The translations under genes were made by a program, and so were the position numbers. Below, piece after piece: positions 54,225 through 64,000 of a DNA stretch of 64,000 nucleotides. Origin of the DNA: Flavobacterium terrigena (GTDB taxonomy: Bacteria > Bacteroidota > Bacteroidia > Flavobacteriales > Flavobacteriaceae). How positions within the stretch are numbered: position 1 is the stretch's first letter; every line of letters starts with the position of its first letter. Under the pieces are notes generated by a model, which was not told where the DNA came from, ran no database searches, and saw only the letters and a list, made by a program, of their open reading frames with translations. The stretch lies in the NCBI RefSeq assembly GCF_900108955.1, contig NZ_FNYA01000005.1, forward strand, positions 124,001 through 188,000, given 5' to 3'.

Positions 54225-55922
54225 ATGAAACATTATTTCTACTACTTTTTTCTACTCTTATCATCATTTGTTTTCTCGCAAAACCAGAGAACATTATCAC
54301 CTATTGAATATCAAAAACTACATGATAAGGCAAGATTGTTAATTAACTCAAATATTGAAAGTTCCTTTTTTTATGCAAATAAGATTGAACAATCTAATAA
54401 TGATCTTCATAAATCATTTGCTTTTGGTATAAAATCGTATTTATATCAAATGAAAGGTGATAGTATTACTTCAAAAAAATATTATAAAACCTCAATTGAT
54501 TATTTAAACAAATTAAAACCATCAACAGACAAAACAAAACTTCATGCCTATTTGTTAAACTACAAAGGTTTATCTGAATGGAAAAGAGGAAACTTAAATG
54601 TTGCAGCTATAACGTATCAAGAAGGTTTAAAATTATCTGAAAAAGCTAATGACGAATTACAGGTTGTAAAATTTTATTCCAACTTAACAAATATCTATCA
54701 AGAGATAGGGAATTTTAATTTAGCTATTAAAACAGGTAGAAAAGCAGATAAATTTCTTGAAAAGATTAAATTAAAATTAGATGAAACACTTTATTTTAAT
54801 CAAAAATCAAATATAAAAATTGCAATAGGAAACTCCTATTTTAAAAAATACAAACAAAACAAATTGGCTTTATGCTTAGATTCTTCCTATGTTTTTTACA
54901 AAGAAGCCTTAAATTATTCAGATGATTTAATTAACAATAAAATTGTACTTAATAAGAATATCGGAACTGTATTAATGATAAAACAAAAATATCGCGAAGC
55001 AGAAAAGACATATAACAACACATTATTACTTTCAATTGAAAACAACTACCAAGATGAAACCAGTAATATTTATTACAATTTAGGCTTTTTAAATTTCAGT
55101 TTAAAAGAAAACGAAAAAGCCAAATTATATTTTCAAAAGTTTGATTCTATTTATAAAATTTTAAACACAAAGAAATCGGAATATGTTTTTAGCAATTATT
55201 ATTTAGCTAAAATATATAATGAAGAAAACAATGAAGTTGAGGCAAAAAAGCATTCAGCCATTTTCTTAGACGAATTAAAAAATTACAACGATAAAATAAA
55301 ACGAGAAGAATTAGAAGTAAATTACAATATAAATTCACAAAAGATTGAAAGTGAAATAAATGAAATTTACCAGACTAATAGTAAGAAAAAGAATTTAATA
55401 TATTTTCTTATTGTTTTAGCGATTGTTGCCATAAACATATTGTTTTACTTTAATTATAAAAAAAGAAAAAGTGCCGAATTAAAAGCAATAAACATTTTAG
55501 AAGAATATAAAGCAAGTAATGAACAACAATCCAAAAAAGTACCATTAAATTTATCAATTGATTCAGAAACAGAAATGAAAATTTTGATGAAACTTGAAAA
55601 ATTAGAAGCTGAAAAATATTATCTAAAACCCGACTTCACACAACAAGAAGTTGCTAAAAAAATAAAAACAAACACCACCTATTTATCATATGTAGTAAAC
55701 AAAAACTATAATAAAACATTTAGCGCATATTTTAATGAACTAAGAATAAACTACGTTATTAATGAAATTATTAATAACAAAAAATATCGCGAGTATACCA
55801 CATTAGCAATCGCTGAAAGCGCTGGATTTAAAAATGCAGACTCGTTTACAAGTTCCTTTAAAAAGAAAACAGGCATTACACCCTATACCTTTATTAATGA
55901 AATAAAAAAAAGAGAGTTATAA
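54225..55922 (+). CDS. TPR-containing membrane regulator with AraC-type HTH
   Basis: The 565-aa protein has a signal peptide (1-19), a periplasmic array of tetratricopeptide-like helices (about 30-370), one membrane helix (about 390-410) and a cytoplasmic C-terminal AraC-type double HTH (about 455-565; TNTTYLSYVVNKNYNKTF, FKNADSFTSSFKKKTGITP). This architecture, a sensor joined directly to a DNA-binding domain, is common in Bacteroidota. It is placed at the edge of the peptide-secretion locus, so regulation of that locus is a reasonable inference. A terminator overlaps its stop codon. Confidence 0.88.
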   Translation: MKHYFYYFFLLLSSFVFSQNQRTLSPIEYQKLHDKARLLINSNIESSFFYANKIEQSNNDLHKSFAFGIKSYLYQMKGDSITSKKYYKTSIDYLNKLKPSTDKTKLHAYLLNYKGLSEWKRGNLNVAAITYQEGLKLSEKANDELQVVKFYSNLTNIYQEIGNFNLAIKTGRKADKFLEKIKLKLDETLYFNQKSNIKIAIGNSYFKKYKQNKLALCLDSSYVFYKEALNYSDDLINNKIVLNKNIGTVLMIKQKYREAEKTYNNTLLLSIENNYQDETSNIYYNLGFLNFSLKENEKAKLYFQKFDSIYKILNTKKSEYVFSNYYLAKIYNEENNEVEAKKHSAIFLDELKNYNDKIKREELEVNYNINSQKIESEINEIYQTNSKKKNLIYFLIVLAIVAINILFYFNYKKRKSAELKAINILEEYKASNEQQSKKVPLNLSIDSETEMKILMKLEKLEAEKYYLKPDFTQQEVAKKIKTNTTYLSYVVNKNYNKTFSAYFNELRINYVINEIINNKKYREYTTLAIAESAGFKNADSFTSSFKKKTGITPYTFINEIKKREL

Positions 55923-55965: not shown

Positions 55966-56193
55966 TTACAACGCTGGCATATCAACTGGAGGTATTCCAC
56001 CACCACCTTTAGGATCAACATCTCCGCTACCACCACCAGTAGAAACAGATCCTCCTCCTGAATCATCTCCTAATTCTAAATCAACTAGATCTATTAAGTC
56101 AATATTACCTTTATCACCTCCACCGACAATCATAATTTGATTCTCTAATTTATTGCTTAAAAAATTTTCAATTTTTAGTTTGGTTTTTTTCAT
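55966..56193 (-). CDS. Glycine-rich peptide with GG-type leader, possible RiPP precursor
   Basis: The 75-aa product has a charged helical N-terminus ending in ENQIMIVGGGD (about 17-27), like the leader ending in GG of Bacteroidota natural-product precursors, and a core rich in Gly, Asp, Ser and Pro without any Cys (SGGGSVSTGGGSGD, KGGGGIPPVDMPAL). It is transcribed opposite to the regulator and the fusion gene. No modification enzyme is adjacent in the window. The protein is short and unusual in composition, so both coding status and class are uncertain. Confidence 0.6.
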   Translation of the reverse strand: MKKTKLKIENFLSNKLENQIMIVGGGDKGNIDLIDLVDLELGDDSGGGSVSTGGGSGDVDPKGGGGIPPVDMPAL

Positions 56194-56461: not shown

Positions 56462-58024
56462 ATGGTTAATCTTCTGAAAAAATATTTACACAAAAATGGT
56501 TATTACAACCAAAAAGATCAATTTGATGATTTATTTTTATCACATCCAAACTATCCAAGCATATTTGCTATAACTGATACCTTAGATGTGCTTTCAATTG
56601 AAAACATAGCTTTAAAAGTACCGAAAGAACAATTTATTGACTTACCAGAAAATTTTTTAGCAATCTATAATGGCCATATCGTTTTAGCAACTAAAACAAG
56701 TCAATCAGTAACTATAGAAACAGCTGAAGCAAAAAAACAAAAACTAACGTTTAACGAATTTCTTACAGGTTGGAACGAAGTTGTAATTGCTATTGAACCA
56801 AATGCAAATCCTGTTCTAAAAAAAGAAAGAAAAAACAAAAGTGGATTGCTTTATGCTTTGCCTTTTCTTGCATTAATTGCTTCATCTGCTGCATTCCAAA
56901 ATTATAATATAAATTCAATTGCGCTACTTGTTACTTCAATAATTGGACTTGTACTAAGTGTCTTTATTGTTCAAGAAAAGTTGGGTGTTAAAAATGAATT
57001 AGCTTCTAAGTTTTGTAATATAAATCCAAATGCGTCATGCGATTCTGTAATAAATTCTAAAAAAAGTGAGATCAACAAATGGATTGGTTTTTCAGATTTA
57101 ACTTTATTATTTTTTAGTATAAGTGTTGTATCTATTTTAATCCAACCAGAATTTTCAAATAGAATAATTGGATTTATAAGTTTGTTAGCAATTCCAGCAA
57201 TTGTATATTCTATTTGGTTGCAAACATTTGAATTAAAAAAATGGTGTGTCTTGTGTTTAGCTGTTTCGTTTGTAATTATAGCTCAAAGCTTAGTATTTAG
57301 TTTTGGAAATGTTACTTGGTTTGACTATTCAATCTCACATTATTACACTTTTATTGTTTCAACAATCCTTTTATCTTCATTATGGTTTTCAATAAAACCA
57401 ATCATAGAAAATAAAGTTAAGTTCGAAAAAGAAACAAATCGATTGATGAGATTTAAAAGAAATTTTAACCTTTTCCAATTTCTTTCTAATGAAATTGAAG
57501 AATATGATGATTTTGAAAAATTAAAAGGAATAACATTTGGAAATGAAAACGCAGCAACACAAATCACACTTATATTAAGTCCAAGTTGCGGGCATTGTCA
57601 TACAGCTTTTGAAGATGCTTATAAACTATTTCAAAATTATTCTGAAAAAATATATCTAAACATCCTTTTCAATATCAATCCAGAAAATCAAGACAATCCA
57701 TATAAAACGGTTCTGGAAAATCTTCTAGCTATAAACGAACAAGATCCCAAAAAAGCACAATATGCGATTATTGACTGGCACATCAATCAATTAAAATTAG
57801 AAGATTGGAAACAAAAATGGACTGTTGAATCACCTCATTTGATAGTTAACAAGGAGTTACAGAATCAATACTATTGGTGTTTAAAAAATGACTTTAACTA
57901 TACTCCTGTAAAAATAATCAACGGAAATTTATTTCCTGATGAATATGAAATTAAAGAGTTAAAGTATTTCATTAATGATTTCAATGAAGAAATGGAAGAT
58001 GAAAAATCATTACAAGCTGTTTAA
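56462..58024 (+). CDS. VKOR-thioredoxin fusion with degenerate C39-like N-terminus
   Basis: The 520-aa protein has an N-terminal C39-peptidase-like domain (1-115; HPNYPSIFAITDTLDVL) without the catalytic Cys, then a vitamin K epoxide reductase-type membrane domain (about 128-310) with all four redox cysteines (C185/C193 spaced as in VKOR, and CVLC at 262-265), and a C-terminal thioredoxin-like domain (about 350-515) with PSCGHCH (C376/C379). This is a self-contained disulfide-forming machine. Its position directly before three Cys-rich precursor genes suggests it oxidises those peptides. Confidence 0.88.
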   Translation: MVNLLKKYLHKNGYYNQKDQFDDLFLSHPNYPSIFAITDTLDVLSIENIALKVPKEQFIDLPENFLAIYNGHIVLATKTSQSVTIETAEAKKQKLTFNEFLTGWNEVVIAIEPNANPVLKKERKNKSGLLYALPFLALIASSAAFQNYNINSIALLVTSIIGLVLSVFIVQEKLGVKNELASKFCNINPNASCDSVINSKKSEINKWIGFSDLTLLFFSISVVSILIQPEFSNRIIGFISLLAIPAIVYSIWLQTFELKKWCVLCLAVSFVIIAQSLVFSFGNVTWFDYSISHYYTFIVSTILLSSLWFSIKPIIENKVKFEKETNRLMRFKRNFNLFQFLSNEIEEYDDFEKLKGITFGNENAATQITLILSPSCGHCHTAFEDAYKLFQNYSEKIYLNILFNINPENQDNPYKTVLENLLAINEQDPKKAQYAIIDWHINQLKLEDWKQKWTVESPHLIVNKELQNQYYWCLKNDFNYTPVKIINGNLFPDEYEIKELKYFINDFNEEMEDEKSLQAV

Positions 58025-58044
58025 AAACATATTAAAAATATTCT

Positions 58045-58080
58045 TGGCCGAGAATAGTCAAAGTTCTCAATTGACTTTAA
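58045..58080. promoter_or_regulatory. Inverted repeats upstream of the first precursor gene
   Basis: AGTCAA (58056-58061) and TTGACT (58071-58076) form an inverted repeat. A near-palindrome TTCTTGGCCGAGAA lies at 58041-58054. They may be operator or RNA-fold elements before the precursor genes. Confidence 0.3.
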
Positions 58081-58117
58081 ATGCTTGAGAAAAAACAATC
58101 AAAATAATTATACTATT

Positions 58118-58303
58118 ATGTTAAAAAACATTTTAAAATTAGACGGTGCTCAACAATTGAGCAAAAATGAGCAAAAAGAAATTAATGGTGGTAGACCAGT
58201 TCCTTGCAAATATGACTATCAGTGTACAGGAGTTCCACCTGCTGGAACTATTTACAGATGTGTAAATGGTGTATGCATGTTAGAATTATTAGACGCTATC
58301 TAA
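58118..58303 (+). CDS. Double-glycine-leader peptide 1 (four cysteines)
   Basis: The 61-aa precursor starts at ATG 58118 (a TTG at 58085 is upstream but not conserved in the sister genes). The leader MLKNILKLDGAQQLSKNEQK... ends in GG at residues 24-25. The core of about 36 residues has four Cys (CKYDYQC and CVNGVC pairs), hinting at two disulfides. Leader type and the C39 exporter downstream fit a bacteriocin-type peptide; target and activity are unknown. A hairpin follows at 58313. Confidence 0.82.
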   Translation: MLKNILKLDGAQQLSKNEQKEINGGRPVPCKYDYQCTGVPPAGTIYRCVNGVCMLELLDAI

Positions 58304-58312
58304 TAAACTCTG

Positions 58313-58342
58313 AGAGAGGAAATTTCTTTCCTCTCTTTTTTT
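58313..58342 (+). terminator. Hairpin after precursor gene 1
   Basis: AGAGAGGAAA (58313-58322) pairs with TTTCCTCTCT (58327-58336), followed by T residues. It may cause partial termination inside the precursor series. Confidence 0.78.
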
Positions 58343-58371
58343 AATAATCTATTAATTTAAAAAACCAAATC

Positions 58372-58566
58372 ATGTTAAAAAACATTTTAAAATTAGACGG
58401 AGCTCAACAATTGAGCAAAAACGAACAAAAAGAAATTAGTGGTGGAATTACTAAACAATGTTTAGACGCATATAGCAATGGGTGTGACAGAACAATAACT
58501 GCAGTAGATTGTTTTAGCCTTTACGAAGGTGTTTACAATTCAACTTGTAAGTGTTGTAACCTATAA
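58372..58566 (+). CDS. Double-glycine-leader peptide 2 (six cysteines)
   Basis: The 64-aa precursor has nearly the same leader as peptide 1, ending in GG at residues 24-25. The core of about 39 residues carries six Cys (CLDAYSNGC, DC, TCKCC), enough for three disulfides, and no similarity to the peptide 1 core. Leader DNA is nearly identical to the sister genes, core DNA is not. Confidence 0.82.
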   Translation: MLKNILKLDGAQQLSKNEQKEISGGITKQCLDAYSNGCDRTITAVDCFSLYEGVYNSTCKCCNL

Positions 58567-58597
58567 AAATATTTTCAAACATTAATTTATTATAATC

Positions 58598-58831
58598 ATG
58601 TTAAAAAACATTTTAAGTTTAGAAGGCGCTCAACAATTGAGTAAAAACGAGCAAAAATCAATTAAAGGTGGTTTAGCTATCGATTTTAGCAAATATAGCT
58701 CATGTCAATATTACTTATTCAACATCAGCCAATCGCAATGTATGAACTTGCCGGTATATCAAAAACCGCTTTGGAATGGAAGTACGTGTTCTGCTACTGG
58801 AACAGGATCATGTAACGGAGATAACATGTAA
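58598..58831 (+). CDS. Double-glycine-leader peptide 3 (four cysteines)
   Basis: The 77-aa precursor shares the leader (MLKNILSLEGAQQLSKNEQK, then SIKGG at 21-25). The core of about 52 residues has four Cys, many aromatic and polar residues (SSCQYYLFN, SQCMNL, STCSATGTGSC) and is the longest of the three. A terminator hairpin at 58840 separates it from the exporter gene, so the peptides could be made in excess over the exporter. Confidence 0.82.
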   Translation: MLKNILSLEGAQQLSKNEQKSIKGGLAIDFSKYSSCQYYLFNISQSQCMNLPVYQKPLWNGSTCSATGTGSCNGDNM

Positions 58832-58838
58832 TTTTCAT

Positions 58839-58874
58839 AATACTGCCTGGATTTTTTTCAGGCAGTATTTTTAA
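58839..58874 (+). terminator. Terminator between precursor genes and exporter
   Basis: ATACTGCCTG (58840-58849) pairs with CAGGCAGTAT (58859-58868), followed by TTTTTA. Confidence 0.85.
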
Positions 58875-58875
58875 C

Positions 58876-58883
58876 TATTTTTG
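58876..58883 (+). promoter_or_regulatory. Promoter -7 element for the exporter gene
   Basis: TATTTTTG matches TAnnTTTG directly after the terminator hairpin, 8 bases before the TTG start at 58892. It suggests separate expression of the exporter operon. Confidence 0.45.
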
Positions 58884-58891
58884 AATCAAAA

Positions 58892-61105
58892 TTGAAAAAA
58901 TTGAAAAAATTTCCTAATTACATACAAGCCGATAGCAAAGATTGTGGACCCACCTGTTTAAAAATAGTAGGTAAACACTTTGGTAAAACCATCAACATTC
59001 AACAATTAAGAGATTTTAGCGAAACTACTCGTGAAGGAAGTAATTTATTGTTTCTTTCTGATGCCGCAGAAAAAATTGGTTTCCGTACACTAGGTGTAAA
59101 ATTAAACTTAGAACGTTTAAACGAAGCGCCATTACCTTGTATTTTGCATTGGAATAAAGATCACTATGTAGTGCTTTATGATATTAAAAAAGGGAAATAT
59201 TTAATTTCAGATCCAGCTTTTGGATTAATAGATTACAATCAAACCGATTTTATAAAATTCTGGATTGGCAACAATGCAGACAATTTCACTCAAGAAGGTG
59301 TGGCTTTATTATTAGAACCAACACCCAATTTTTACGATTTAGATATTGATAGTACTGATAAAGATGGCAAGAAAAAAGCTTTAGGTTTTGGCTTATTATC
59401 TCGTTATGTACTAAAATACAAATCATTTTTAATACAATTAATTGTCAACCTTCTAGCAGGAAGTGTTTTACAATTAATTTTTCCATTTTTAACACTCAGT
59501 CTTGTCGATGTTGGTATTCAAAACCAAGACATGGGCTTTGTGTATATGATTTTATTCGCTCAATTATTCCTTTTTGCTGGAAGAATGGGTTTAGAATTAA
59601 TTCGAGGCTGGATCATGCTTCACCTTTCAACTAGAATCAACATCTCATTAATTTCCGATTTCTTTATCAAATTAATGAATTTACCTATATCTTTTTTCGA
59701 TGTTCGTATGACTGGCGATATCATGCAACGTATCAACGACCATCATCGCATTGAAAAAATACTTACCACTTCTTCATTAAATGTAATCTTTTCCGTTTTT
59801 AATATGATAGTTATGGGAGGTGTTTTAGCCTACTACAACTTAATGATATTCTTTGTATTCTTTGCAGGAAGCATTTTATACTTTGTTTGGATTTTACTCT
59901 TTTTAAAACGAAGAGAAGAATTAGATTACAAACGATTTTCAGAAGTCTCTCAAGAACAAAGTAAAGTAATTGAGTTGATAAATGGTATGCAAGAAATTAA
60001 ATTGCACAATGCCGAAAAACAAAAACGTTGGGGTTGGGAATATGTGCAAGCCCGATTATTCCGAGTTTCAACAAAAGGATTAATCTTAGAACAAACACAG
60101 TCGTCAGGTTCACAAATTATTAATGAATTAAAAAATATTTTCATCTTAGTTTTATCTGCAAAACTTGTTATTGATGGCACAATTACTTTGGGAATGATGC
60201 TGGCGATAAGTTCTATTGTTGGGAGTTTAAATGGTCCAATATCGCAACTAATTGGTTTTGTAAGAGAACTTCAAGATGCGAAAATATCCTTAGCCCGTTT
60301 GTCCGAAATTCACGAAAAAGAAGACGAAATTCAGCAAGAAGCATATCAAACCAACGATGTTCCTAACAATCAAGATATTATTATTAAAGACTTATCGTTT
60401 CGTTATTTAGGTTCTGATATATCTGTTTTAGATAACTTAAGTCTTACCATTCCAACCAATAAAATTACTGCAATAGTAGGAACAAGTGGAAGTGGAAAAA
60501 CAACCTTAATGAAATTACTATTGAAGTTTTATGAACCCCAAAGTGGTGAAGTTTTAATTGGAAATACACAGTTAAAAAACATTTCTCAAAAAGCATGGCG
60601 AAATAACATTGGAGCCGTTATGCAGGAAGGATTTATTTTTAATGATACGATTGCAAACAACATTGCCATTGGCGTAGATATTATTGATAAAGAACGTTTG
60701 GTTTATGCCGCTGACGTAGCCAATATTAAAGAATATATTTCTGGTTTACCTTTAGGATACAATACTAAAATTGGTTCTGAAGGCGTTGGAATGAGTACCG
60801 GACAAAAACAACGTTTATTAATTGCAAGATCGGTTTATAAAAATCCAGAAATGTTATTTTTTGACGAAGCCACTTCTGCGCTTGACGCGAATAACGAAAA
60901 GGAAATCATGGAAAAACTAGATATCTTTTTCAAAAACAAAACTGTTGTTGTTATTGCGCACCGATTAAGTACGGTTATGAATGCCGACCAAATTGTTGTG
61001 CTAGAAAAAGGAAAAATTATTGAAATTGGAAATCACGAAACCTTGGTTGCAAATAAAGGAAATTATTATAATCTAGTTCGAAATCAATTACAACTTGGAA
61101 GTTAG
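58892..61105 (+). CDS. Peptidase-domain (C39) ABC exporter
   Basis: The 737-aa PCAT-type exporter cuts the leader after GG and pumps the core peptide out. The C39 domain (1-135) has Gln12 and Cys18 (IQADSKDCGPTC), His in WNKDHYVVLYD and Asp in ISDPAFG, so it is active by sequence. The membrane domain spans about 165-450; the ATPase has GTSGSGKTTLMKL, signature MSTGQKQR and Walker B MLFFDEATSALD. No ATG precedes the domain; TTG at 58892 or 58901 is the start. Its C-terminal codons run into a 7-nt repeat tract. Confidence 0.94.
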   Translation: MKKLKKFPNYIQADSKDCGPTCLKIVGKHFGKTINIQQLRDFSETTREGSNLLFLSDAAEKIGFRTLGVKLNLERLNEAPLPCILHWNKDHYVVLYDIKKGKYLISDPAFGLIDYNQTDFIKFWIGNNADNFTQEGVALLLEPTPNFYDLDIDSTDKDGKKKALGFGLLSRYVLKYKSFLIQLIVNLLAGSVLQLIFPFLTLSLVDVGIQNQDMGFVYMILFAQLFLFAGRMGLELIRGWIMLHLSTRINISLISDFFIKLMNLPISFFDVRMTGDIMQRINDHHRIEKILTTSSLNVIFSVFNMIVMGGVLAYYNLMIFFVFFAGSILYFVWILLFLKRREELDYKRFSEVSQEQSKVIELINGMQEIKLHNAEKQKRWGWEYVQARLFRVSTKGLILEQTQSSGSQIINELKNIFILVLSAKLVIDGTITLGMMLAISSIVGSLNGPISQLIGFVRELQDAKISLARLSEIHEKEDEIQQEAYQTNDVPNNQDIIIKDLSFRYLGSDISVLDNLSLTIPTNKITAIVGTSGSGKTTLMKLLLKFYEPQSGEVLIGNTQLKNISQKAWRNNIGAVMQEGFIFNDTIANNIAIGVDIIDKERLVYAADVANIKEYISGLPLGYNTKIGSEGVGMSTGQKQRLLIARSVYKNPEMLFFDEATSALDANNEKEIMEKLDIFFKNKTVVVIAHRLSTVMNADQIVVLEKGKIIEIGNHETLVANKGNYYNLVRNQLQLGS

Positions 61106-61137
61106 AAGCGTGAAGCTGGAAGTCGGAAGTAACAAGC
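61091..61137. repeat. Heptanucleotide repeat tract, left boundary of the four-helix gene
   Basis: In-phase 7-mers (CAACTTG GAAGTTA GAAGCGT GAAGCTG GAAGTCG GAAGTAA) start inside the exporter gene and include its stop codon. GAAGCTGGAAGT (61112-61123) is repeated inverted at 61569-61580. Confidence 0.65.
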
Positions 61138-61152
61138 AAAAAATTAACAATA

Positions 61153-61512
61153 ATGAGCTTTAAATTTGAAAAATTAATAATTTGGCAAAGGGCAATGGAT
61201 TATGGTGAAGAAATTTACACTATGTCTTTACAATTTCCAAAACATGAAATATATAATCTTTCCTCTCAAATATTAAGAGCTTCCGATTCAGTTGCCTTAA
61301 ATATTTCTGAAGGTTCAATTTTACAATCCAATGCAGAATTTAATCGTTTTTTAGGTTATTCTATTCGTTCTTTAGCAGAAACTGTAACTTGTTTACATAA
61401 AGCAAAAAGAAGAAATTACATTACACAAGAAATATTTAACAAACATTATAATGAAGCATTTAACTTAATGAATATGTTAATTGCTTTTAAATCAAAAGTA
61501 AAAAATGACTGA
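61153..61512 (+). CDS. Four-helix-bundle protein (S23/IVS family)
   Basis: The 119-aa protein has the signature of the S23-type four-helix-bundle family often encoded in 23S rRNA intervening sequences and related to Avd: FEKLIIWQRAMDYGEEIY at the N-terminus, LSSQILRASDSVALNISEG near 37-55, FLGYSIRSLAETVTCLHKA near 73. Function is unknown; a nucleic-acid-binding role is suspected for the family. Here it lies within an exporter-adaptor operon, bounded by inverted heptanucleotide tracts, and its 3' end overlaps the HlyD start by 8 bases. Confidence 0.9.
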   Translation: MSFKFEKLIIWQRAMDYGEEIYTMSLQFPKHEIYNLSSQILRASDSVALNISEGSILQSNAEFNRFLGYSIRSLAETVTCLHKAKRRNYITQEIFNKHYNEAFNLMNMLIAFKSKVKND

Positions 61513-62839
61513 ATTCAAAACTCCGAACGCTAAACCCCCAACTTCAAACTCCCAGCTTCCATCTCCTGACTTCCAGCTTCGTAGCGAAGAAGTACAAGAT
61601 ATACTAACAAAAGTTCCTAATTGGATGATTCGTTGGGGAACTTTTCTAATTTTTGGAATCATTTTAATGCTATTATTTACTTCTTGGTTTATTAGATATC
61701 CAGATATTGTGAGTAGCGAAATTATTATCACCACAAACACACCACCAGAAAAGCTAATTGCAAAAGTGAATGGAAAAATTCAGGCGATTTTAATTGAAGA
61801 CAAAGCAAATGTAAAAGCAAATACACCTTTAGCAGTGATTGAAAATTCTGCCAATTACAAAGATGTTTTTTTGTTGAAATCAACTATCGAGAATATTAAT
61901 TTAGACAAAAGCGAATTCCCATTTGATAAGTTTAAAAATGCTCAATTAGGTGAAGTTGAAGCCAGTTTTGCCGTTTTCCAAAAACAATATATTGCAGATA
62001 ATTTAAACAAAAAGCTAAAACCTTTTGATGTAGATGCGAATGCGCAAGGCTATGAAAAAACACAATTAGCCGAAAGATTGCAGTTGCTAATTGCACAAAA
62101 AGCTATCACTGAAAATGAATTACAAATTCAAAAAATCGATTTAAACCGACAAGAAACTTTATTTAAAAAAGGGGTAATCTCAGCTCAAGAAATCGAGAAA
62201 CAACGTTTAATCTATCTTCAAGCTGAGAAGAATTACAAGAATTTATTGAGTTCAATTTCGCAAACCAAATCATCTATAAACGATTTAAAAAGAAACAATC
62301 AAACCACACAAATTAACGAAAACAAAGAAAATACCAATTTAGAAACGAATGTGTTACAAGCTTTTTACCAACTAAAAAAAGCAATCAAAGATTGGGAATT
62401 AAACTATGTTTTCCGTTCGTCGGATGAAGGAATTGTGACGTTTTTACAAATTTGGTCGGTAAACCAAAACATTGCTGCTGGAGAAAATATGTTTGCCATT
62501 ATTCCAACAAATCAAAATGGTTTCGTAGGAAAATTAAAAGCAGCCGCTTTAAACTCAGGGAAAATTAAAGAAAATCAGCGTGTTAATATTCGTTTAGCCA
62601 ATTATCCTGATAGAGAATTCGGAATCGTAAAAGGAAAAGTCAAAAGAATATCATTAACACCAGATAAAGATGGTAATTTACTAATGGATATTGCTTTGCC
62701 AAAAGGATTAGAAACTTCGTATAAAAAGAAAATTCAATTTCAACAAGAAATGCGTGGTTCTGCAGATATTATTACAGAAGATTTACGACTAATTGAACGT
62801 ATTTTTTATCAGTTTAGGAGCATGTATAAAGTGGAATAA
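61505..62839 (+). CDS. HlyD-family secretion adaptor
   Basis: The 444-aa membrane-fusion protein links the ABC exporter to an outer-membrane channel. It has a cytoplasmic N-terminal tail (1-40), one membrane helix (about 43-62), a biotinyl-lipoyl half-motif near 80-105, a long coiled-coil hairpin (about 170-300) and a beta-barrel domain ending near 440. The tail residues 4-27 (Pro/Ser/Asn-rich) are encoded by the 7-nt repeat at 61514-61583 and are probably not conserved. It partners with the exporter at 58892; no TolC-like gene is visible. Confidence 0.92.
   Translation: MTEFKTPNAKPPTSNSQLPSPDFQLRSEEVQDILTKVPNWMIRWGTFLIFGIILMLLFTSWFIRYPDIVSSEIIITTNTPPEKLIAKVNGKIQAILIEDKANVKANTPLAVIENSANYKDVFLLKSTIENINLDKSEFPFDKFKNAQLGEVEASFAVFQKQYIADNLNKKLKPFDVDANAQGYEKTQLAERLQLLIAQKAITENELQIQKIDLNRQETLFKKGVISAQEIEKQRLIYLQAEKNYKNLLSSISQTKSSINDLKRNNQTTQINENKENTNLETNVLQAFYQLKKAIKDWELNYVFRSSDEGIVTFLQIWSVNQNIAAGENMFAIIPTNQNGFVGKLKAAALNSGKIKENQRVNIRLANYPDREFGIVKGKVKRISLTPDKDGNLLMDIALPKGLETSYKKKIQFQQEMRGSADIITEDLRLIERIFYQFRSMYKVE
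61514..61583. repeat. Heptanucleotide repeat tract, right boundary, inside the HlyD gene
   Basis: Ten 7-mers run in phase (TTCAAAA CTCCGAA CGCTAAA CCCCCAA CTTCAAA CTCCCAG CTTCCAT CTCCTGA CTTCCAG CTTCGTA). It is inverted relative to 61091-61137, with a perfect 12-bp match, and encodes HlyD residues 4-27. Confidence 0.65.
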
Positions 62840-62943: not shown

Positions 62944-64000
62944 ATGAAAACTAATACTTTAATAATATTTTTACTCCTACTTTTTTCATCTTGTAACAAA
63001 AAAAGCAGTCAGATTATCATAGAAGGAAATATCCCTAATTTGCCAGATGGAAAGCTGTATTTATCGAAAGATAATTATATTAACAAAATTGACAGTATCG
63101 ATACTGAAAATGGGATATTTAATTTTAATTATAAAACTGATTCTGATGAGCCTATTTATATGGCTATACATCACATAGATAAGAATGGGGTTTTTAGAGC
63201 AATTAGCTTTCCAACTAAAGCAAAATATAACAATGGAAGCTATAATTCTCAATTTTTCTTATCTGATTCAATAATAATTATTAATGGTAAATTAATTGAT
63301 AATAGTCCTATTGGAATACTAAATGATTCAAAGACAAAATTCGTAAATAGTCCCGAAATTAAAGCTGGTTATCAAACTAATGCTTTATTCCATACTGATG
63401 GCGATTTGTTTGATAATATTAATAAAAACACATATAGCAAAGTATTGTTAAAAATAAAAAAGTATTCTAATTCCTTTCATTTGTTATACAGTATTAATGA
63501 ATATAGAAATAGTTTTACACCTATACAAGTTGATAACTTATTAAATAGTTTCAATGGAAAAATTACTAATAGTGATACTTTTTTGAAATTAAGAGATTAT
63601 AATAAAAAAAGGTTAGAGAATAAAGAAATAGTTTCACCTATTCTTACAAATCAAAAAGGAGAAAAAGAAAATGTTTTAGATAAAAAGTTCGATAAACATT
63701 TAGTGGTTTTTTGGGCTAGTTGGTGTGGACCTTGTAGACAAGAAATTCCAGCTTTAAAAAATATTTATAAAAAGCACAAAAATGAAGTTGATTTTGTTTC
63801 TGTATCAACAGATGAAAATGAAAGATTGTGGCAGAAAGCATTAGAAAAGGAAATGATGCCTTGGAAACAATTTATTCTAAGTGAAAAATCAAAAGAATAT
63901 GAAAAGAATGAAATATTTTTCCAATTAAGTAAATCAATTCCTTATACTTTACTTATCGATAAAGACATGAAAGTTATAAAATCACATGTTGGTTTAATGA
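62944..64000 (+). CDS. TlpA-like thioredoxin lipoprotein, 3' part missing
   Basis: The frame is open for 352 codons from ATG 62944 to the window end. It has a lipoprotein signal (FSSC, Cys17), an N-terminal DUF4369-like beta domain (about 22-130; IIIEGNIPNLPDGKLYLSK), a linker helical region, and a TlpA/AhpC thioredoxin domain from about 235 with WASWCGPC (C261/C264). It is a periplasm-facing thiol-disulfide oxidoreductase, probably reducing or isomerising disulfides. It follows the HlyD gene, so a role in the quality control of exported Cys-rich peptides is possible. Confidence 0.85.
   Translation, partial: MKTNTLIIFLLLLFSSCNKKSSQIIIEGNIPNLPDGKLYLSKDNYINKIDSIDTENGIFNFNYKTDSDEPIYMAIHHIDKNGVFRAISFPTKAKYNNGSYNSQFFLSDSIIIINGKLIDNSPIGILNDSKTKFVNSPEIKAGYQTNALFHTDGDLFDNINKNTYSKVLLKIKKYSNSFHLLYSINEYRNSFTPIQVDNLLNSFNGKITNSDTFLKLRDYNKKRLENKEIVSPILTNQKGEKENVLDKKFDKHLVVFWASWCGPCRQEIPALKNIYKKHKNEVDFVSVSTDENERLWQKALEKEMMPWKQFILSEKSKEYEKNEIFFQLSKSIPYTLLIDKDMKVIKSHVGLM

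Follow-up and report, generated by a model that had tools for sequence, protein, structure and literature searches.

Peptides that carry a double-glycine (GG) leader, leave the cell through a C39 exporter and have an oxidoreductase of their own are known already, and the closest case found in print is that of the bacteroidetocins, for which a class IIf has been proposed (PMC6671954). Bacteroidetocin loci occur in the Bacteroidota and combine 4-Cys GG-leader peptides, with leaders of 15 aa, a C39 ATP-binding cassette (ABC) exporter, a separate and dedicated thiol oxidoreductase and a separate protein with five transmembrane (TM) helices; deletion of either the thiol oxidoreductase or the 5-TM protein attenuates activity. 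The subject here is a locus in a stretch of 64,000 nucleotides from Flavobacterium terrigena (contig NZ_FNYA01000005.1, positions 124,001 to 188,000; the whole stretch is referred to as the window), in which a single protein joining a C39-like domain, a VKOR core and a DsbA-like domain is encoded ahead of three cysteine-rich GG-leader peptides, a C39 exporter and an HlyD-type adaptor, and for which we propose leader-guided, quinone-linked disulfide formation before export. In place of the separate proteins of the bacteroidetocin loci there is one fusion, HlyD is in the operon, there are several peptides and the leaders are of 25 aa. The GG leader, C39 exporter and 4-Cys peptide that characterise class IIf are all present (the last as precursors 1 and 3), whereas the four-gene set of that class is not.

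Dedicated disulfide enzymes alongside GG or C39 export are also a feature of the sublancin/glycocin and pediocin loci (Bdb and PedC-type oxidoreductases), which are Gram-positive and whose enzymes are separate, extracytoplasmic and, to our knowledge, without a leader-binding domain. For an unusual orientation there is a precedent in the VKOR of Aeropyrum pernix, whose topology, going by the title of Hibender et al. 2017 only, promotes the formation of disulfides in two compartments; we know of no C39 domain or peptide substrates for this archaeal protein. A VKOR core with C..C and CxxC cysteines and a C-terminal DsbA-like domain are shared with described VKORs and VKOR-DsbA fusions, such as the Synechococcus (4nv2/4nv5) and clostridial (PMC12453122) proteins; what sets the present protein apart from them is its N-terminal C39-like domain, the extra helix TM0, the inverted charge pattern and the linkage to exported peptides. 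HlyB likewise has a C39 fold that lacks the catalytic Cys, with a presumed role in substrate recruitment (3zua; PMC6363468); there it is carried by an ABC exporter and here by a disulfide-forming enzyme, so that a HlyB-type assignment does not apply. Among the open-access matches listed (titles and opening abstracts), with the subscription literature largely outside the search, there was no description of a C39-VKOR(-DsbA) fusion beside such peptides, nor of disulfide formation guided by a leader. Such fusions may have been annotated in databases.

A three-part VKOR fusion and its cysteine-rich peptides

The fusion gene (56462..58024, on the plus strand, as are all features below unless stated otherwise) encodes 520 aa with six TM helices. 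The original prediction, made from the letters of the window, had described it as a VKOR-thioredoxin fusion with six redox cysteines; both domains and all the cysteines are there, and what it had overlooked is a third, C39-like domain at residues 1-117 (56462..56812). Membership of the VKOR family is apparent both from the sequence profile (PF07884 at residues 154-276, 2.6e-16, 60.4 bits against a cut-off of 27.5) and from the cysteines (a loop pair and a CxxC), and Pfam Thioredoxin_4 matches at 355-505 (PF13462, 2.3e-5). An AlphaFold2 (AF2) model, with a predicted local distance difference test score (pLDDT) of 81, has membrane helices at 127-145, 150-173, 210-227, 229-258 (kinked), 263-281 and 291-333, and the membrane part (residues 127-333, 56840..57460) is made up of the extra TM0 and a VKOR core with C185, C193, C262 and C265. 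In the model the VKOR fold is intact, the core aligning in VIA-align with human VKOR (Z 13.7) and Synechococcus VKOR (Z 12.9), and the DsbA-like domain (residues 343-513, 57488..58000), which has a CGHC motif with C376 and C379 and a Thr-Pro loop, aligns with ScsC over 160 residues at 2.8 A (Z 17.2). All six redox cysteines are kept in 141/141 aligned homologues and in 44/44 of a further alignment; of the 141, 82 have CGHC as the DsbA-like motif and 135 retain the Thr-Pro loop. The fusion is the single VKOR of the genome, where neither a second VKOR nor a match to DsbB was found. Some other loci (L078, L225, L226, L231) have two copies of the fusion, or a copy and fragments, which suggests enzymes specialised for different peptides.

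Three Cys-rich GG-leader peptides with four to six core cysteines had been predicted to follow, and this is what the window holds: precursor 1 (58118..58303) has four core cysteines, precursor 2 (58372..58566) has six, with a similar 6-Cys core in the same-genus locus L223, and precursor 3 (58598..58831) has four. The start of precursor 1 is the ATG at 58118, the listing of open reading frames (ORFs) having used a longer TTG start; the precursor matches leader_Chryseo (NF047798) below the cut-off, and its Late nodulin and EB matches, likewise below their cut-offs, were dismissed as chance likeness of cysteine pattern. The three 25-aa leaders are nearly identical and a search of the source genome with the leader yielded three occurrences, all at this locus.

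The original prediction had proposed looking for the same neighbourhood in other Flavobacteriaceae and had named VKOR fusions rarely standing next to such peptides as an outcome that would speak against it. Of 299 genomes drawn from the family, 40 (the source genome among them) had a match to the fusion, nearly always over most of its length, and a scan of genome contigs extended its range to Tenacibaculum, Bizionia, Lacinutrix, Winogradskyella, Aquimarina, Labilibaculum, a Roseivirga metagenome-assembled genome (MAG), Saprospiraceae and Bacteroidales MAGs, and others. Altogether 131 loci entered the peptide count, 125 of them distinct after the removal of 6 duplicates. A strict GG-motif peptide occurred within 3 kb downstream of the VKOR gene in 79 of the 114 loci for which that much sequence was available, with at least four core cysteines in 78. 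Where 8 kb were available on both sides (100 loci), 271 GG peptides in 70 loci lay downstream on the same strand, compared with 10 in 8 loci upstream and 1 in 1 locus on the opposite strand; GG peptides are thus found downstream of VKOR more often than by chance. In the 113 loci with at least 5 kb, a GG peptide with at least four cysteines was present in 81, an exporter in 80 and HlyD in 79; 99 had peptide or exporter, 62 both and 14 neither. Ten of eleven same-genus loci have a Cys-containing GG peptide downstream and ten an exporter. The locus is real and recurrent in the Bacteroidota, and rarity of the fusion beside such peptides is not what was observed.

The GG-motif search is blind to cysteine, and the 319 downstream peptides have an even number of core cysteines in 294 cases and an odd number in 25, none being without cysteine (four in 127, six in 141, eight in 22). 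Among the non-redundant cores 244 of 263 are even, set against a mean of 129.3 and a maximum of 154 in 500 residue shuffles. The processing, export and oxidative folding of 4-6-Cys peptides that had been read from the gene set are supported by this parity, by the recurrence, by the invariant redox cysteines and by the contrast with related exporters that have no VKOR beside them.

This last comparison used 27 exporters, 48-77% identical to that of the window, from regions that as fetched contain no VKOR (in several cases the genome has one elsewhere, e.g. G083, G026 and G195), and 62 loci with VKOR (51 + 11), of which 42 had a full exporter. Same-strand short ORFs with at least four cysteines within 4 kb, counted regardless of leader, were present at 38 of the 42 exporters that have VKOR nearby and at 8 of the 27 that lack it; several of those 8 look like wrong-frame ORFs. 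The strict motif found Cys-rich peptides in two of the 27 regions, L200 (5) and L208 (8, on the other strand). Ten neighbouring proteins from five of the VKOR-less loci (L194, L196, L200, L206, L220) were scanned: a radical SAM protein was found in L194, MvdD-type pre-ATP-grasp matches in L196 and L220 (below cut-off), SPASM in L220 and a subtilase in L206, and the single protein scanned from L200 gave no match. The exporter family therefore appears to serve several peptide systems, and VKOR appears to hold the place of the modifying enzyme in its own loci. We consider it close to certain that this is a dedicated disulfide-peptide locus, and very probable that the fusion is what oxidises the peptides.

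The degenerate C39 domain

The Pfam Peptidase_C39 profile (PF03412) matches residues 33-115 of the fusion below its cut-off and over profile positions 46-132 only. The kinship is much clearer from profile and structure comparisons: hhalign of the N-terminal domain against 117 exporter C39 domains gave a probability of 97.5 (E 2e-11), and residues 1-119 of the whole model aligned with PCAT1 and with the LahT-leader complex at Z 13.5 each. Folded alone (pLDDT 88.7), the domain matched PCAT1 (Z 13.3), the LahT-leader complex (Z 13.2), ComA (Z 12.2) and HlyB 3zua (Z 11.5); the first 14 VIA-align rows were all C39 peptidase, PCAT1 or HlyB structures, and the first 14 Foldseek matches were C39 peptidases, PCAT1 or the HlyB C39-like domain. 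As modelled, then, the domain has the papain-like fold of Peptidase C39.

The catalytic apparatus is another matter. Residue 1 aligns with residue 28 of LahT (by structure) and with exporter Cys22 (by hhalign), after Cys18 of DCGPTC, which we take to be the catalytic cysteine, and in the model the domain starts just past the catalytic-cysteine position. No DCG-type motif occurs in any of the 141 homologue rows, and neither His nor Asp is conserved among them at the columns aligned to the catalytic ones, which in LahT belong to the triad Cys27/His101/Asp117 (PMC6363468). Cys, His and Asp come together near all three catalytic places in a single row, that of the divergent fusion L071, whose N-terminal domain may, judged by its residues, be closer to an active peptidase. 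The catalytic Cys-His-Asp set of Peptidase C39 appears to be missing from the domain, and an active protease in the fusion was rejected on the loss of the catalytic motif.

What is conserved is a block between helices 2 and 3 of the model (S27, H28, P29, P32 and S33; SHPxYPSL). The leader groove of LahT runs between the first three helices and the sheet and binds leader positions -12 and -4 (PMC6363468); the conserved block would map onto this groove region, and its retention speaks against a decaying relic. The leaders at VKOR loci keep L(-12), E/D(-8) and I/V(-4), as seen in 263 non-redundant peptides. The domain is probably, on the strength of the model, a leader-docking module, and on balance we favour its binding the leader.

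Membrane orientation and the timing of oxidation

With six TM helices the C39-like and DsbA-like domains lie on the same side of the membrane. When the TM boundaries of the AF2 model were mapped through the alignment of 141 homologues, the density of lysine plus arginine was 0.181 on the active-site side, which comprises the N-linker, the loops with the Cys pair and the CxxC, and the segment after TM5, against 0.035 on the opposite side; the active-site side was the richer in 141/141. Exporters served as a control, with six TM segments picked by eye and fixed boundaries mapped through their alignment, and gave 0.206 inside against 0.044 outside, inside being higher in 119/119; the exporter C39 domain is cytoplasmic, as established for PCAT1. 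Canonical VKORs of the phylum have the opposite charge pattern to the fusion in 19 of 20 cases. These 20 derive from 29 loci (L086-L114), 27 of which gave rows (L092 had no usable ORF and L104 no TM1), after L096 (a member of the fusion family) and L107 (inverted-like) had been set aside and 5 dropped as implausibly segmented; the one going the wrong way, L108, is an ORF with a long N-terminal run. By the positive-inside rule the working parts of the fusion should be exposed to the cytoplasm, the compartment in which the precursor still has its leader. Inversion relative to canonical VKORs, with docking domain, active site and DsbA-like domain all cytoplasmic, is accordingly predicted and in our view likely. 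The set-aside L107 is a VKOR of 399 aa that comes from the same class but a different family, with six TM helices and an inverted charge pattern by a crude call.

The sequence of events that we propose would begin with precursors made in the cytoplasm with their 25-aa GG leader, which the degenerate C39 domain, not expected to cut, would hold in much the way supposed for the exporter's own C39 domain. The DsbA-like domain, on the same protein and the same membrane face, would then oxidise the core cysteines and be re-oxidised by the VKOR core, from which electrons would pass to a membrane quinone as the presumed acceptor. The oxidised precursor would finally reach the C39 exporter, be cut after GG and have its core exported with the help of HlyD and of a TolC-type protein whose gene is elsewhere (the genome has 17 OEP-domain matches, the window 0). 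The order implied originally, with processing and export ahead of oxidative folding, is probably to be reversed: oxidation first, then leader removal and export. We give leader-guided, quinone-linked disulfide formation before export, taken as a whole, a probability of roughly 0.57. The wider proposition, a class of ribosomally synthesised and post-translationally modified peptides with the disulfide as sole modification, introduced by a cytoplasmic, inverted, quinone-linked VKOR with a leader-gripping pseudo-C39 domain and exported folded, is tentative, its chances falling somewhat short of even.

A number of observations weigh against this scheme. The cytoplasm is normally reducing. The AF2 model does not give the membrane side, and the canonical-VKOR control rests on a crude hydrophobicity TM caller which on the exporters was wrong-signed, with inside exceeding outside in only 3 of 70 (70 of 118 being called with six TM helices). 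Acidic residues nearly balance basic ones in two of the loops of the fusion (3.38 acidic to 3.17 basic in the N-linker and 3.38 to 3.91 in the Cys loop), which slightly lowers confidence in the inverted orientation and leaves it resting mainly on the 3-4 loop (1.92 basic to 0.09 acidic), the post-TM5 segment (6.53 to 3.08) and the empty other side. A Cys stands near residue 1 in 16 of the 141 rows. The genome-contig scan used N-domain patterns of one subgroup and gave 79 loci (the best 80 of 138), and it is there that the linkage is strongest, with a GG peptide of at least four cysteines in 56 of 64 loci, an exporter in 48 of 64 and even-Cys peptides in 239 of 252; in the same-family sample, selected by neither peptide nor N-domain motif, loci with room gave only 24 of 48, 31 of 48 and 48 of 59. 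The 14 of 113 loci with neither peptide nor exporter mean that some fusions may serve other or distant substrates. Finally, position -7 of the leaders is Gln in 243 of 263, and the corresponding residue of the LahT substrate is Leu, with Lys or Asp there strongly reducing cleavage (PMC6363468).

The main rival is the classical order of events, in which the core is cut and exported reduced and is oxidised, on its way out or afterwards, by a fusion whose active site is in the periplasm as in canonical VKORs; the C39-like domain would be a tether to the exporter or an evolutionary relic. Such an arrangement would fit the intact VKOR fold, the ability of a canonical VKOR-DsbA fusion to restore periplasmic disulfide formation in E. 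coli (PMC12453122) and the view that the bacteroidetocin thiol oxidoreductase forms the peptide disulfides (PMC6671954). It has to contend, however, with a charge pattern inverted in every homologue and normal in nearly all the canonical VKORs; with the leader, which a C39-like domain in the periplasm would miss, the exporter removing it on the cytoplasmic side; and with the need to move a domain of ~125 aa, placed before the first TM helix, through the membrane, while the conserved SHPxYPSL block runs counter to a relic. We regard the classical order as unlikely.

It might also be the case that the C39-like domain binds to the exporter, or brings the peptide to it, and that oxidation is independent of the leader. 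The HlyB domain, which is among the fold matches (Z 11.5), is needed for secretion without proteolysis (PMC6363468), and an exporter is nearby in 80 of 113 loci. Against this, 19 of the 113 have a Cys-rich GG peptide although no exporter could be found within reach; the fusion thus keeps company with the peptides and not with the exporter alone, and this reading seems improbable. That the cysteines are used otherwise (in metal binding or thioether cross-links), with VKOR protecting or isomerising the thiols of another substrate, would suit the 14 loci with neither recognisable Cys peptide nor exporter and is very hard to reconcile with the strong even-Cys bias, the six conserved redox cysteines and a genome without a LanC-like match and window without a radical-SAM match.

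Other genes of the locus and wider significance

All the genes named in the original prediction are present in the window, in order on one strand from the VKOR fusion to the TlpA-like gene, and the observed locus is confirmed. The absence of lanthionine synthetase and radical-SAM enzymes from the window also holds good: LanC-like proteins (PF05147, lanthipeptide cyclase) have no match anywhere in the genome and none of its 11 radical-SAM matches is inside the window, and a lanthipeptide or radical-SAM product was rejected on these grounds. A C39 exporter and HlyD had been placed after the peptides, and both are there. The exporter (58892..61105) has C39, six TM and ATPase parts with an intact DCGPTC (PF03412 3.6e-32, ABC_membrane, ABC_tran); it scores 449.8 bits with the NHLP bacteriocin exporter model TIGR03796, under the curated cut-off of 853.3, and membership of that group was rejected. 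Between it and the HlyD-type adaptor (61505..62839; HlyD_3) lies a gene that had been missed, for a four-helix 23S_rRNA_IVP protein (61153..61512; PF05635, 4.1e-32). Imperfect inverted repeats (61096-61130 / 61541-61575) flank it, splitting the exporter from HlyD, and the first ~24 residues of HlyD are seemingly supplied by the inserted stretch, as judged from its N-terminus beside 10 same-genus relatives. The repeat is absent at the other four PF05635 copies of the genome. There is no IVP match among the other loci listed, which led to its rejection as a part of the system; the gene is probably outside it, and the stretch 61080-61640 has the look of a small mobile insertion that preserved the HlyD reading frame.

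The DUF4369/TlpA-like thioredoxin lipoprotein that had been counted in the gene set does follow, at 62944..63999, where it runs off the window (in L002 the protein is complete, at 364 aa). A TlpA-like gene accompanies 10 of 113 loci and was rejected as a core part, being accessory; in L225 a close relative (436 bits) is flanked by two copies of VKOR. Beyond it are opposite-strand genes, housekeeping-like as read from their ORFs.

Two upstream genes had escaped notice. A protein with TPR and AraC-type helix-turn-helix (HTH) domains (54225..55922; Pfam TPR_12, HTH_18) is the probable regulator of the locus and a candidate one-component regulator; a relative precedes VKOR in 7 of 11 same-genus loci, and in an eighth (L226) it is found between two copies of VKOR. 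The protein has a hydrophobic stretch near residue 390 that is TM-like by eye. A Cys-free, Gly-rich peptide with a GGG motif is encoded on the minus strand at 55966..56193, is without Pfam or NCBIfam match and is a candidate for a second peptide class. Cys-free GG peptides also occur on the opposite strand between TPR-AraC regulator and VKOR in the same-genus loci L224 (5) and L230 (3). One may speculate that the same system could export them and that they could act as a pheromone on the TPR regulator.

The peptides themselves presumably act between bacteria, as antibacterials or as signals. The genome signature of a C39-like VKOR and even-Cys GG peptides has already provided 263 non-redundant candidate peptides. 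If the proposal is true, it would mean leader-guided disulfide formation by a bacterium in its reducing cytoplasm, driven by membrane quinone, and the reuse of a dead protease by a redox enzyme to grip the leader; it would suggest a one-gene tool for disulfide-rich peptides in the cytoplasm of laboratory hosts, and it would explain how disulfide-rich peptides come to be made in a bacterium without a DsbB match.

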